Assembly (NCBI RefSeq): GCF_003610195.1
Contig: NZ_RAPO01000002.1
Location: 248,001 to 312,000 of the forward strand
Direction of reading: 5' to 3'
From: Halopiger aswanensis
Lineage (GTDB): Archaea; Halobacteriota; Halobacteria; Halobacteriales; Natrialbaceae
Length of the DNA: 64,000 bases
A program made the position numbers and the translations under genes. How positions within the stretch are numbered: the stretch's first letter is position 1; each line of letters starts with the position of its first letter. Below the pieces are notes generated by a model. It did no database searches and was not told the origin of the DNA. It saw only the letters and a list, made by a program, of their open reading frames with translations. Shown in pieces: positions 8,566-54,974 of this stretch.

Positions 8566-9219
8566 ATGCTAATTGCGACCTTCCGACTCGAACTCGAGGC
8601 AGTCGCACTCGAACAGGCGTTTGATGCGGTCCCGGAGATGACGGTCGAAGCCGAACGCATCGCCGCACACAGCACCCAATGGACGATGCCGTGTCTCTGG
8701 ATCGCTGCCGATGACTTCGACGCCGTCGATACTGCTCTCGAAAACGACCCCTCGGTAGACGAAATCGTTGGCGGCGACGAATTCGGCGAGGAGAAGTACT
8801 ATCATATCGACTGGAACGAGGAGACGTACGAACGGATCTCCGCATACATTGATAAAGAGGGATCACTCCTCCAGGCGGACGCGACCGACGACGGGTGGGA
8901 GTTAGAGATACGATTCGTCGGCCGTGATCAGTTCGACGAATTCCGGACGATGTTGCACGAACGAGGGTACGCCTTCGAACTGCTGAACCTCTACCAACCG
9001 GGTGCCCCGCGGCAGACGGAGGGTGAGGTGACATCCGCTCAACGAAATGCCCTCGTTACCGCCGCTGAGCTGGGCTACTACAAGGTTCCTCGTGAGATCT
9101 CCACGAGAGAACTCGCAGACGAACTCGATATCTCTCACCAGACCGTCTCAGAACTTCTCCATAGAGGAACGGAAAACCTCATCACGTCTCATCTCACGAC
9201 GACTGCCGCCGACGCGTAG
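8566..9219 (+). CDS. HTH-10 family (bacterio-opsin activator-like) regulator
   Basis: The 217-residue protein has two parts. Residues 1-150 form the small-molecule/GAF-like module seen before this HTH. Residues 155-205 form the HTH_10 domain, with TSAQRNALVTAAELGYYKVP, then ISTRELADELDISHQTVSELL. It is one of four such regulators in the window. Its third-position base use is visibly less G+C-biased than its neighbours. The DUF7344-like gene follows 101 bases downstream with its own TATA-like box. Family members regulate varied genes, the best known being Bat for bacterio-opsin; the target here is unknown. Confidence 0.88.
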   Translation: MLIATFRLELEAVALEQAFDAVPEMTVEAERIAAHSTQWTMPCLWIAADDFDAVDTALENDPSVDEIVGGDEFGEEKYYHIDWNEETYERISAYIDKEGSLLQADATDDGWELEIRFVGRDQFDEFRTMLHERGYAFELLNLYQPGAPRQTEGEVTSAQRNALVTAAELGYYKVPREISTRELADELDISHQTVSELLHRGTENLITSHLTTTAADA

Positions 9220-9261
9220 TCACTTCTCGTCGACGTTGATCGTTTCCCCCTCATAAAACGA

Positions 9262-9269
9262 CTTAAAAG
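9262..9269 (+). promoter_or_regulatory. TATA-like box before the DUF7344-like gene at 9321
   Basis: CTTAAAAG would place transcription start near 9292, leaving a leader of about 28 bases before the GTG at 9321. A six-codon frame (9304-9324, MAYCET) lies in that leader and its TGA overlaps the GTG start. Confidence 0.5.
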
Positions 9270-9320
9270 CCTGACACGGCGGGTCGAAACTCCATACAAG
9301 ACCATGGCGTATTGTGAAAC

Positions 9321-9668
9321 GTGAGTAACGTACCGTCCGAATCGAGCAAGAACGGAAGTGACACGGTTGACACGGCCTTAGAGGCGCTCTCTCATGTTCA
9401 CCGTTTTCAGCTTTTACAGTCCCTCTGTGAAGAGGACCCGCAGGAAGCCGTAATCGCTTCCGTCACCGATAGCGTAGAGCGCGGTAGAGACGTGAAATCG
9501 GTACAAATTGAACTGTACCATCTTCACCTCCCAAAACTCGAAGAGGCGGGGTTCATCGAGTGGGAGCGAGAGCACGACCAGGTGAGCAAAGGGCCTAATT
9601 TCGATACAATCGAGAAGTTACTCGAACGGCTGAGCGAAGGCAGGAACCGCGAACTCCTCTTTAACTAG
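9321..9668 (+). CDS. DUF7344-like winged-helix protein
   Basis: The 115-residue protein starts at a GTG. The core runs from about residue 18 to 100: ALEALSHVHRFQLLQSL, then IELYHLHLPKLEEAGFIEW. The signature L-x-H-x-HLPxLxxxGxI is shared with the genes at 22248 and 32532 and fits the haloarchaeal DUF7344 group, which looks like an ArsR-type winged helix. DNA binding is inferred from that fold. No ATG is in frame nearby, and an upstream mini-frame stops exactly over this GTG, so translational coupling is possible. It pairs with the HTH-10 gene just before it. Confidence 0.75.
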   Translation: MSNVPSESSKNGSDTVDTALEALSHVHRFQLLQSLCEEDPQEAVIASVTDSVERGRDVKSVQIELYHLHLPKLEEAGFIEWEREHDQVSKGPNFDTIEKLLERLSEGRNRELLFN

Positions 9669-13388: not shown

Positions 13389-14066
13389 CTATTCGGTCAC
13401 CATCTCGCTCGCCGCCTCGTCCAGCTGCTCGCTCGCGAGCACGCGGTTGGCCCGGCGCAGCCGCTCGGAGAGCGCCTGGTGGGAGATGTCGAGTTCGTTC
13501 GCCAGTTCCTCGAGCGAGATCTCGCGGGGGACGTCGTAGTACCCCTGGCGGTAGGCCTCGGCGATGGCCTCCTTCTGGGGCTCGGTCAGCGCCGCGGTCG
13601 TCTCGAGGTCATCGTCGGCGCCGGCTTCGACCATCCGCTTGACGTCGACGCGGACGCCCTGGTCCTCGATATCCGAGACGGCGTCCGAGAGCCCCTCGCG
13701 GTGGGGGAAGAGCACGCGAAGCGTCCAGTGGTTGTCCGTGACCTGCGCACCCAGTACCGTGCCGTCGTGGGCGTAGATCGCGCGACAGATCGAGCTGACG
13801 TCCTCGCTGTACTCGAGCCGGTAGAACAACTCTCCGTCGTCGGTATCCTCGAGGAGCTGCTGGTGTTCGACGACGGTCGAGTCCGCACGCAGCGTCTCGT
13901 CGAGTTCGTCCGAGCCGACGTTGGAGAACCAGACCAGCGGCGTCGTTCGGCCCGGCCCCTCGGCGACGACGCTCTCGACGCGGACCTCCATCGACGGGAG
14001 CTGCTGGAACGTCTCCGCGAGGGCGAACTCGTCGGTCGAGACCGAGAGCTCGGCGATCGTCGTCAT
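13389..14066 (-). CDS. HTH-10 family (bacterio-opsin activator-like) regulator
   Basis: The 225-residue protein starts MTTIAELSV at 14066. A GGTGA Shine-Dalgarno lies a few bases upstream, and a slightly longer frame is not needed. Residues about 1-155 form the GAF-like/BAT module. The HTH_10 domain follows (TEPQKEAIAEAYRQGYYDVP, then LEELANELDISHQALSERLRRA). It is more G+C-rich than the copy at 8566 and has no DUF7344-like partner. Its nearest relative in the window is the gene at 54306, with the same HQALSERLRRA recognition helix. Confidence 0.9.
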   Translation of the reverse strand: MTTIAELSVSTDEFALAETFQQLPSMEVRVESVVAEGPGRTTPLVWFSNVGSDELDETLRADSTVVEHQQLLEDTDDGELFYRLEYSEDVSSICRAIYAHDGTVLGAQVTDNHWTLRVLFPHREGLSDAVSDIEDQGVRVDVKRMVEAGADDDLETTAALTEPQKEAIAEAYRQGYYDVPREISLEELANELDISHQALSERLRRANRVLASEQLDEAASEMVTE

Positions 14067-21328: not shown

Positions 21329-21511
21329 CGTCGTTCACCATAGAAAGGCGCAGCGGGGATATAGTCCTTTCGTAGGCAACAGAAAACGGCCGGCCGATTC
21401 GCGAGGAGTCGTTTCGTCATCTAAAACCGTGAGATGGCGACCGATCGAGCGCGATTGGAGGACCTAAGCGAACGTGTTAGGGCCGTTAGTAGCACTTGTG
21501 AACGAACATTC

Positions 21512-21525
21512 ACTTATGAATAAGT
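21512..21525. repeat. Palindrome over the start of an HTH-10 gene
   Basis: ACTTAT-GA-ATAAGT is a perfect 6+2+6 inverted repeat that includes the ATG at 21516. It could be an operator or a leader hairpin. Confidence 0.45.
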
Positions 21526-22184
21526 ACATTAACCGATTAGGGGTGTTGGTCGCCGAGTTCGTCGTCGAGGCGGCGGTCCTCCAGCAGACGTTAAGCGCGT
21601 TTCCCGATGTCAGTCTCACGCACGAGGCGCAGTATCTGACCGCTGACGGAACGGTACGGCTGTTCTTCCGGATGGCCGGTGTCGACCCCGCTGCGTTCGA
21701 ATCGACGCTCGAGGCCGATCCGACGGTGACTAACGCTCGTCGCATCGACCGTACCGACTCCGCGACCCTCTACCGCGTCGATTTCACCGCCGAGGGGCGG
21801 GCCAAATCGACGTTTCCTCGCTGGGCGATCGACGACGTCGTCCTCCTCGAGGCGACCGGCACGACCGATGGCTGGCGAATCCGTATGCGCGTTCCCGATC
21901 GGGAAACCCTACTCGAGTACCGGGAGGCGTACGGCACGCGGGGCTGTTCGTTCGCGCTGCAGTCGCTCTCCCTCGATCAATCCGACGGCGACGGCCTCGA
22001 GTTGTACCTGTCGCCGTCGCAGCGCGACGCCCTCGTGTCGGCCTACGAACTGGGCTACTTCGAGATACCGCGCCGGATTTCACAGGAAGAGCTCGGCGCC
22101 GAACTCGGCATTAGCGCGCAGTCGGTCTCGGAGCGACTGCGGCGCGCCGTCTCGTCGCTGGTCGAGTCGCTGCTCGGCAGGTAG
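21516..22184 (+). CDS. HTH-10 family (bacterio-opsin activator-like) regulator
   Basis: The 222-residue protein begins MNKYINRLGVLVAEFVVE; GTG at 21474 or 21543 are alternatives. Residues 10-165 make the GAF-like module, and the last 50 the HTH_10 domain (SPSQRDALVSAYELGYFEIP, then QEELGAELGISAQSVSERLRRA). It is followed 63 bases later by a DUF7344-like gene, repeating the arrangement at 8566-9668. Sequence identity between the two HTH-10 proteins is only moderate, so they are not a recent duplication. Confidence 0.88.
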   Translation: MNKYINRLGVLVAEFVVEAAVLQQTLSAFPDVSLTHEAQYLTADGTVRLFFRMAGVDPAAFESTLEADPTVTNARRIDRTDSATLYRVDFTAEGRAKSTFPRWAIDDVVLLEATGTTDGWRIRMRVPDRETLLEYREAYGTRGCSFALQSLSLDQSDGDGLELYLSPSQRDALVSAYELGYFEIPRRISQEELGAELGISAQSVSERLRRAVSSLVESLLGR

Positions 22185-22247
22185 CACTTCAAAGCCTGAG
22201 TTACAAGGTCGATTACTCACGGTGGTAGCTGCTGGAAATTAAACCGG

Positions 22248-22556
22248 ATGTCCCGATCAACGCACCACGATTTGCTGTTCGAAGCGCTCGCTGACGGCCA
22301 CCGTCGACGACTGTGCGCGTATCTCGCCGACCGAGACGGGACGGTCGAACTTGCCGACGTCTGCGCGACGCTGTGCGAACGGTCGCAGTGCTCTCGTCGG
22401 ACGCTCGAGATCGAACTCCACCACGTTCATCTGCCGTTGCTCGCTGACGCGGGTATCATCGACTACGCACGGGGGGCAGACCGCATCGAACCGGCTGGAA
22501 ACCTTCCGGTTGCGAAGACGATTCTCGAGACGACCGCGGAAGCGACCTGCACGTAG
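22248..22556 (+). CDS. DUF7344-like winged-helix protein
   Basis: The 102-residue protein contains LFEALADGHRRRLCAYLADRDG, then RTLEIELHHVHLPLLADAGIIDYAR, the L-x-H-x-HLPxLxxxGxI signature also found at 9321 and 32532. The fold is probably an ArsR-like winged helix. It has four cysteines in the central part (CATLCERSQC plus one more), unlike the other two copies, which could bind metal or respond to redox. It lies directly after an HTH-10 gene. Confidence 0.75.
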   Translation: MSRSTHHDLLFEALADGHRRRLCAYLADRDGTVELADVCATLCERSQCSRRTLEIELHHVHLPLLADAGIIDYARGADRIEPAGNLPVAKTILETTAEATCT

Positions 22557-32531: not shown

Positions 32532-32891
32532 ATGGATCGGATGGAGGCATTTCGTATTCTCGCCAGCGCCGATCGACAGCTGGTGCTCCACGAGCTGGTC
32601 GAAGCGGAGGATCCGACCCGTATCGGGGCGATTTCTCGCCAGGTAGCTGCGCGCCGGCATCGAACCCCGCCCCAGCAAATCGACGAGGATAAGGTCGAAC
32701 GGGCGCGTATTCGATTGATTCACAGCCATCTGCCGCGGCTCCAAGAGCGAGGGATCATCGACGTCGATCGAGCCGAAAACGAGATCTCGCTGGCGGAGAG
32801 CGACGCGACGGCGCAACTGTTCGACGCCGCCGACGAGCTAGACAGTTGGCCGCCGGACGATCTCCTCGAGCATCCGGCGCGGCGTCGGTAA
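32532..32891 (+). CDS. DUF7344-like winged-helix protein
   Basis: The 119-residue protein starts MDRMEAFRILASADRQLVLHELVE; a GTG directly precedes the ATG. It includes RIRLIHSHLPRLQERGIIDVDR, the signature shared with 9321 and 22248. A longer, basic loop separates the first and second parts (RQVAARRHRTPPQQIDEDKVERA). It is not paired with an HTH-10 gene. Its stop lies one base from the stop of convergent HMG-CoA synthase. Confidence 0.75.
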   Translation: MDRMEAFRILASADRQLVLHELVEAEDPTRIGAISRQVAARRHRTPPQQIDEDKVERARIRLIHSHLPRLQERGIIDVDRAENEISLAESDATAQLFDAADELDSWPPDDLLEHPARRR

Positions 32892-54305: not shown

Positions 54306-54974
54306 TCACGCCCCCTCGCGTTCCGGGCCGATGCTGACGACCTCCTCGACGAGCGTCCGGTGGGCGCGCCGGAGTCGCTCCGACAGCGCCTGGTGGGAGA
54401 CGCCGAGTTCGTTCGAGAGGTTCTCCATGTCCATCCCGCGGGGAATCTCGTAGTAGCCGCGCTCGAGGGCCGCGACCAGCGTCTCGTACTGGGCGTCGGT
54501 CAGATCGTACCGGTTGTGCCGATCCTCCTCGACGCGGTGGATCTTCTGGATGGAGAGCGACATCCCTTCGTCGGTCGCGAACTCGTAGACGTTCGACAGC
54601 GACTCGCGTTCGGGAAAGAGCACCCGAAACTGCCACTGCGTGCCCTCGACCCAGGCGTCGAGCACCGTCGCTTTCTCTTCGGTCAGCAGGTGGATCATCA
54701 CGGTTACGTCGTCGACCCAGTTCATCCGGTAGAGTCGCTCGTCGTCGAGGTCGGTCAGCAGTTCGAACGCCTCGACGCTCGGGTCGGCCTCGAGGCGCTC
54801 GTCGACGGCCGATAGCGTCGATTCGTCGCCGGAAAACCAGACGTAGGGCATGACGTGGTCCGGATCGTAGGCGACGACGCGCTCGATCTCGACGTCGACG
54901 TCGCCGCTCTCCTCGAGCGTGTGGCGCAGCGCGAACTCCGCGGCGGGAATGGCGATCTTGGCAATCGTACTCAT
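54306..54974 (-). CDS. HTH-10 family (bacterio-opsin activator-like) regulator
   Basis: The 222-residue protein starts MSTIAKIAIPAAEFAL at 54974. The GAF-like module is at about 1-155; the HTH_10 domain follows (TDAQYETLVAALERGYYEIP, then MENLSNELGVSHQALSERLRRA). It is the copy most like the one at 13389. A longer frame to 55082 lies in the promoter region and is not used. Its target is unknown; moaA is divergent from it. Confidence 0.9.
   Translation of the reverse strand: MSTIAKIAIPAAEFALRHTLEESGDVDVEIERVVAYDPDHVMPYVWFSGDESTLSAVDERLEADPSVEAFELLTDLDDERLYRMNWVDDVTVMIHLLTEEKATVLDAWVEGTQWQFRVLFPERESLSNVYEFATDEGMSLSIQKIHRVEEDRHNRYDLTDAQYETLVAALERGYYEIPRGMDMENLSNELGVSHQALSERLRRAHRTLVEEVVSIGPEREGA

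Follow-up and report, generated by a model that had tools for sequence, protein, structure and literature searches.

The two genes at 21516-22556 of the 64,000-nucleotide stretch of Halopiger aswanensis DNA that was analysed (the window) form a conserved and diverged pair whose co-inheritance is supported by gene order and trees of relatives. The reading that we slightly favour is that they constitute one co-inherited regulatory module, in which a Bat-like regulator would be accompanied by a dedicated and exchangeable small partner. It draws on the pairing itself, its orientation bias, the correlated trees, a conserved element that many pairs carry at a nearly constant distance, and loci in which a receiver-domain gene has replaced the partner while the element stays. 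From these sequence observations we infer the role of the element as promoter and operator, the identity of its binder, a contact between the two proteins and a signal input through the partner.

Two diverged gene pairs in the window

The frame 21516-22181 matched the Pfam families BAT (PF15915; 49.1 bits, cut-off 25.8) and HTH_10 (PF04967; 62 bits, cut-off 23.1), which places its product, with both domains above cut-off, among the Bat-like HTH_10 regulators. In a Pfam scan of the 222-aa frame at E<=1, only BAT, HTH_10 and weaker HTH families were returned and neither PAS nor GAF was found, as in the short regulators of the NarO/DmsR type. The second gene (22248..22556, forward strand) encodes a protein of 102 aa whose coding part, 22248-22553, belongs to the Pfam family DUF7344 (PF24035; 46.6 bits, cut-off 27.8). 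The two genes are separated by 63 bases (22185-22247), and the order of an HTH-10 gene followed by a DUF7344-like gene, as given by the sequence-only reading, is thus borne out.

The same reading had described an identical gene order at 8566-9668, and the same Pfam families were indeed recovered there: a second BAT and HTH_10 regulator at 8566..9219 and, with a GTG start, its DUF7344 partner at 9321..9668, both on the forward strand. The regulators of the two pairs share 34% identity and the small proteins 31%, and the two regulators fall in separate clades of the regulator tree; for these reasons a fresh duplication was rejected, in agreement with the earlier view of two related and diverged sites. 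The 8566 pair is patchy: G001, a genome of the same genus, yielded nothing for its regulator at E<=1e-40, and G069, a genome of another genus, has a version with 84% identity, a distribution that may reflect horizontal transfer or loss. The window also contains a third DUF7344 domain (32556-32801, forward strand) with no adjoining HTH_10 gene, and two more BAT-HTH_10 regulators (13431-14036 and 54339-54932, both on the reverse strand) with no DUF7344 neighbour.

Start codon and upstream region of the regulator gene

The regulator start had been placed at ATG 21516. This assignment is now the less likely one and GTG 21543 is probably the start, giving a gene of 21543..22184 on the forward strand, because the 93%-identical relative G001 has no ATG where 21516 aligns, carries TAG and TAA in frame ahead of the GTG and reads CTTATAAATTAG, a TATA box, at the position of the ATG. 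Four other relatives (L023, L024, L026 and L028) likewise show a TATA box (TTTATAA or TTTTATAA) at the aligned place, together with a GTG or ATG aligned with GTG 21543. In the window, the alignment of relatives delimits a TATA-like box at 21513..21524 (forward strand) that includes the ATG formerly taken as the start.

Between this box and the GTG start, at 21528..21541 on the forward strand, lies the near-palindrome ATTAACCGATTAGG (consensus in relatives CCTAAYYRRTTAGG). Its TAA-N4-TT core is the same in 8/8 aligned sequences, window included, although it is non-coding; the full consensus is present in degenerate form across the 8 sequences, and only G108 has the exact palindrome pattern. The pattern CTAANNNNTTAGGNG was rejected as a genome-wide operator, since its single match in 8 genomes lies ahead of the G108 regulator. 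The palindrome may resemble the bop upstream activator sequence; a literature search for that sequence gave no match, and no claim is drawn from the likeness. Upstream of the TATA box, an inverted repeat GTGAACGAACATTCAC (21498..21513, forward strand) is kept in G001 as GTGAATGGGCATTCAC and is absent from the other six aligned relatives. The predicted structure of the regulator had a pLDDT of 77, with the HTH part below 60, and yielded no useful fold match.

Frequency and orientation of the pairing

The 4.87 Mb haloarchaeal source genome (G000) contains 56 HTH_10 and 49 DUF7344 domain matches. Among the latter, 42 DUF7344 genes in 40 stretches were examined, a weak 29-bit match at L163 being excluded, and 8/42 adjoin an HTH_10 gene, 5 in tandem behind the regulator and 3 divergently. 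The pair described earlier as a second instance is one of several in this genome. Two of the divergent cases are near-copies, so that a cautious independent count is 7. Chance would give about 0.2 adjoining genes under a model of distances (for at least 8, P 1e-10; for at least 7, P 4e-9) and about 1 in a neighbour model that assumes 4800 genes (P 9e-6 for at least 8, 7e-5 for at least 7).

Over all loci examined, 50 distinct pairs were collected, 38 in tandem with the regulator first and 12 divergent; the loci were mostly picked by similarity to the window genes, and these numbers are thus counts of what was examined and not frequencies. Neither the DUF7344-first order (<=1200 bases) nor the convergent order (<=500) occurred among the 50 pairs. 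L060, interrupted by a contig end, was counted neither as paired nor as unpaired. A long HTH_10 gene (629 aa frame) lying divergently from a DUF7344 gene is present in nearly identical copies at L176, on contig C5 of G000, and at L177, on contig C4.

In the source genome, 34/42 of the examined DUF7344 genes have no HTH_10 neighbour within the set distances. This number is compatible with a simple cascade in which the HTH_10 regulator would do no more than control DUF7344, which would itself act alone on other genes, the adjacency arising from local action of the regulator. The divergent layout of the clade B pairs and the presence of an element ahead of the partner gene, both described below, would fit such a local control as well. 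We nevertheless rate the cascade as rather unlikely: the correlation of protein distances within clades, given in the next section, and the replacement of DUF7344 by, or its fusion to, a receiver domain agree better with a signalling partner than with an arbitrary target.

Co-inheritance of regulator and partner

In a regulator tree of 175 rows, the 21516 gene belongs to clade A, the 8566 gene to clade D and ten of the divergent pairs to clade B. The paired regulators cluster on this tree (11 changes against 43.8 in shuffles, 0/500 being as low), a value to which near-copies contribute. The small gene had been expected beside orthologs of the regulator; this is the case for 15 of the 18 regulators of clade A whose flanking sequence was readable and holds much less widely in the wider clade D, where 16/30 regulator rows are paired with DUF7344 and 14/30 have no DUF7344 neighbour. 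The remaining 3/18 clade A regulators (genus code g3, including Natronococcus pandeyae) are followed by a receiver-domain gene instead.

Matching phylogenies had also been anticipated, and this expectation was met in part. The distances in the two trees correlate over 49 pairs (r=0.575, 0/5000 permutations; truncated locus L110 left out), and they do so within clades A (0.83), B (0.82) and D (0.58), each with 0/5000 permutations, although shared species history within clades also raises such correlations; for the 4 pairs of clade C the correlation was not significant (824/5000). The DUF7344 tree, built on 104 columns, does not exactly mirror the regulator clades: on it, 8 changes are needed for clade D, 4 for A, 3 for C and 2 for E, whereas B and F are each undivided. 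Partners may have been exchanged between regulators, or 104 columns may resolve too little.

The pair of the window lies ahead of a cobalamin adenosyltransferase gene, as it does at L051 (Halopiger djelfimassiliensis), L052 (Halobiforma nitratireducens) and L053 (Halopiger goleimassiliensis). The A2 pairs of L054 (Natronolimnohabitans innermongolicus) and L057 (Haloterrigena salina) are found beside purD and an aminotransferase gene, so that the clade A pair occurs in two gene neighbourhoods and stays together in different places. A link to the adjoining cobalamin adenosyltransferase was accordingly discarded, as it is confined to the close relatives L051-L053. At L028/L053 (Halopiger goleimassiliensis), ACG stands where the DUF7344 gene of relatives has its ATG start; it may be a defective gene or have its start at another codon.

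An element in the gap

Just past the regulator stop codon, at 22186..22208 on the forward strand and 62 bases ahead of the partner start, lies the element ACTTCAAAGCCTGAGTTACAAGG, which combines a TATA-like box and a half-dyad. Some form of CACTTAAAAGCCTGA...AAGG is common to 8 clade A1 relatives, behind the regulator stop codon, and in L025 and L026 the element overlaps that codon. The other pair of the window carries it as ACTTAAAAGCCTGACACGGCGGG (9261..9283, forward strand), 60 bases ahead of the partner start at 9321.

Since clade A1 loci served to define the element, independent evidence for it comes only from the test across clades. A weight matrix built on clade A1 only (7 sites, L002 being omitted as a near-copy) was scored on the remaining 30 tandem gaps. 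A fit was obtained in 4/4 A2 gaps (p<=0.004), with L031, L032 and L034 being near-copies, in 7/16 gaps of clade D, namely those of L131-L136 and of L148 (p<=0.006), and in L056 (p 0.009); the fit was weak for L043, L047 and L185 (p 0.009-0.018) and doubtful for L035 (p 0.054), and no fit was seen in the other 9/16 clade D gaps nor in L036, L038, L110, L180 and L193. The element is thus present in two distant clades, both window pairs included, and not in every pair. Among regulators without a partner, 7/127 had a matrix p<0.02, about 2.5 being expected, and 4 of these 7 are the clade A receiver-gene loci L030, L033, L037 and L055, from 3 genomes (L030 and L055 are one place of Natronococcus pandeyae taken from two collections; L033 and L037 have the same genus code g3).

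In 8 genomes picked because they bear the pair, the 13-mer CTTNAARGCCTGA was found at 5 sites, and 5/5 fall in regulator-partner gaps, two of them in the window (9262 and 22187); its reversed control gave 8 matches. A stricter pattern, worded so that it could not match the clade D variant, yielded 5 matches in 125 genomes, 4 in clade A gaps and 1 elsewhere (G026). With start codons picked by hand, the distance from element to partner start is 60-64 bases in 18/19 loci, 3 with a receiver-domain gene among them; at L148 it is 44 bases, measured from the first ATG. We read the element as a TATA box and a half-dyad that spans the start region; it would act as promoter and operator. A single motif for both the regulator and the partner promoters was not supported (Fisher combined p 0.086, 24 gaps).

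Many ArsR-type proteins bind their own promoter element as autorepressors. The ArsR-like winged helix of DUF7344, and the dyad-like element that covers the likely promoter of its gene, would fit a protein that represses its own gene from the gap element and also controls the regulator. We consider this improbable, since at L030/L055, L033 and L037 the element persists ahead of a receiver-domain gene, again 60 bases on, and no DUF7344 was found within the flank (6 kb in L055, 1.5 kb in the others); a DUF7344 protein encoded elsewhere in those genomes could still bind there. Because the element persists where DUF7344 was not found, the HTH_10 regulator appears to be a likelier binder than DUF7344.

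In the clade B divergent pairs (L020, L040, L042, L044-L046, L048-L050 and L183), the shared intergenic region contains TATTCACG in 9/10 cases and, in L049, TACTCACG; a TTTAT box comes after it.

Other genes in the partner slot

The receiver identity of the gene found behind the element at L030/L055, L033 and L037 was indicated by a profile match in all four loci and confirmed with PF00072 for L055 and L037. A fusion is seen at L142, where the DUF7344 partner protein also carries a receiver domain. Among clade D relatives with no DUF7344, the slot contains a HalOD1 protein at L139 and L145 and a small zinc-ribbon-like ORF at 8 loci (L151-L155, L157, L159 and L160); in 3 of these 8 ORFs scanned against Pfam, no family exceeded its cut-off. 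Over 174 distinct regulators, the slot was classed as DUF7344 in tandem in 36, divergent DUF7344 (within 900 bases) in 10, receiver in 3, HalOD1 in 3 and zinc ribbon in 8, where the two window pairs stand under one label, 2 of the HalOD1 and 4 of the zinc-ribbon sequences found had served to build the respective profiles, and the DUF7344 match classed as 'before' at L045 is an antisense shadow. The partners of L148 and L193 contain two DUF7344 domains each, and that of L148 continues into a TrmB-like stretch (24.4 bits, cut-off 22.2).

In the module that we favour, the first gene would encode a short Bat-like transcription regulator, with a BAT sensing-type domain and HTH_10 and no PAS or GAF, and the second a small ArsR-fold winged-helix protein (DUF7344) serving as a partner dedicated to this regulator. 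The half-dyad overlapping the gap promoter would be bound by the regulator, or with lower likelihood by the partner, and the amount of partner would be set in this way; the partner would in turn alter what the regulator does, either through direct contact or at promoters common to both. The slot would be exchangeable between DUF7344, receiver domains, a DUF7344-receiver fusion, HalOD1 and zinc-ribbon-like proteins, which suggests that the partner brings the signal. A broader proposal, which we advance tentatively and with somewhat less than even confidence, is that of a haloarchaeal plug-in system: a short DNA-binding core of the Bat-like type and, behind it, a slot under a conserved promoter that the core controls, into which signal modules such as DUF7344, a phosphorylatable receiver domain, HalOD1 or a zinc ribbon would have been swapped, DUF7344 being a signal-bearing partner of Bat-like regulators.

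Fold and cysteines of the DUF7344 partner

The AlphaFold2 model of the partner is an ArsR-like winged helix (pLDDT 85, pTM 0.74). Its nearest folds are CadC and Halobacterium salinarum RosR (each Z 11.6), followed by SmtB (Z 10.8), HlyU (10.4) and SqrR (9.8), with CzrA and BigR also among the near folds; the best Foldseek E-value was 0.002. Sequence similarity to ArsR-fold sensors was limited to E 0.019-1, and the ArsR/SmtB metalloregulator profile NF033788 scored 18.3 against a cut-off of 55.

Four cysteines, said earlier to distinguish this copy, had been taken as the sign of a metal- or redox-sensing protein. They correspond to C39, C43, C48 and C101, and the protein has one more cysteine, C23. 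In the model, Cys23 lies in helix 2, Cys39 and Cys43 in helix 3, Cys48 just after helix 3 and Cys101 at the end of helix 5. In a 58-row DUF7344 alignment (12 rows of clade A, 9 of clade B and 37 others), C39 is present in 2/12, 0/9 and 1/37 rows, respectively, C43 in 2/12, 0/9 and 0/37, C48 in 2/12, 1/9 and 0/37, and C101 in 2/12, 0/9 and 1/37. All four occur together in 2/12, 0/9 and 0/37 rows, namely this genome and a relative of the same genus; the extra cysteines, as a set, are thus a genus trait seen in two genomes. Their reading as the mark of a metal or redox sensor was not supported, and a four-cysteine metal site was rejected as a conserved feature. By contrast, C23 is kept in 11/12 clade A, 8/9 clade B and 3/37 other rows, and it is the candidate thiol of the partner on the basis of the alignment.

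In SqrR, BigR and HlyU, the cysteine pair sits in helices 2 and 5. This pair is described as conserved among these thiol sensors in the accessible part of PMC10509353, and the DUF7344 alignment does not reproduce it, C101 being the only late cysteine. C23 lies in the same helix as the cysteine of YgaV and HlyU and one residue ahead of it, in weak alignments (4.3 and 10.8 bits). A lone-cysteine switch is possible in a winged helix: in Haloferax volcanii, the single-winged-helix protein OxsR has one essential cysteine, C24, located at the modelled dimer interface and acting as a thiol switch (PMC9426492, available portions).

A metal/redox sensor pair, in which the extra DUF7344 cysteines would bind metal or form a disulfide, could be argued from C39 and C43 standing one turn apart in helix 3 of the model with C48 close by, from the presence of CadC, SmtB, HlyU and SqrR among the nearest folds, and from the conservation of C23 in clades A and B together with the OxsR precedent. 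We assign it a small probability, in view of the genus-specific set of four cysteines and of the one-residue offset of C23 in the weak YgaV and HlyU alignments.

Relation to known systems

The nearest known arrangement is that of Bat/Brz and the zinc-finger-flanked Bat homologues of H. salinarum, in which, as here, an HTH_10-type regulator has a small protein gene nearby; the parts of the sources available describe small zinc-finger genes near the Bat homologues boa4 and boa2 (PMC2253796) and propose that Bat and Brz cooperate at the protein level (PMC2253796, PMC3184054). The 8 relatives with a zinc-ribbon-like ORF in the partner slot extend this likeness. The differences are that DUF7344 is a winged helix, with no CPxCx or CxxCG pattern of the Bat-Brz zinc fingers in its 102 aa, and that Bat has PAS and GAF domains whereas the 21516 regulator has neither. 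In the latter respect it resembles NarO of Haloferax volcanii and DmsR of H. salinarum, short Bat-like regulators that lack PAS and GAF and have genes of denitrification and of DMSO respiration as their targets; the accessible text of PMC11218638 does not speak of a DUF7344 partner for them.

Stand-alone receiver regulators and HalOD1 proteins of haloarchaea are represented here by the genes that fill the partner slot behind related regulators. The available sections of a paper on these proteins report that two-component signalling proceeds mostly via protein-protein contact, that receiver and HTH genes share neighbourhoods and that receiver proteins with DNA-binding domains are rare, and do not mention DUF7344 or a partner slot (PMC5847659). 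The receiver replacement could be a possible route for phosphorelay signals to DNA in archaea. As regards the ArsR-fold sensors CadC, SmtB, HlyU and SqrR, and RosR, the DUF7344 model shares their fold (Z 9.8-11.6) and differs from the sensors in lacking the cysteine pair and a metalloregulator score above cut-off.

A literature search covering few subscription journals found no paper naming DUF7344 and no description of an HTH_10-DUF7344 pair. DUF7344 is a large family, matched by 49 domains in the source genome alone, whose function is given as unknown in Pfam; gene order, trees and a module-specific element now tie it to Bat-like regulators and so point to a testable role. At L161, L162, L164, L011 and L013, the DUF7344 proteins extend into hydrophobic stretches that resemble membrane helices by eye.
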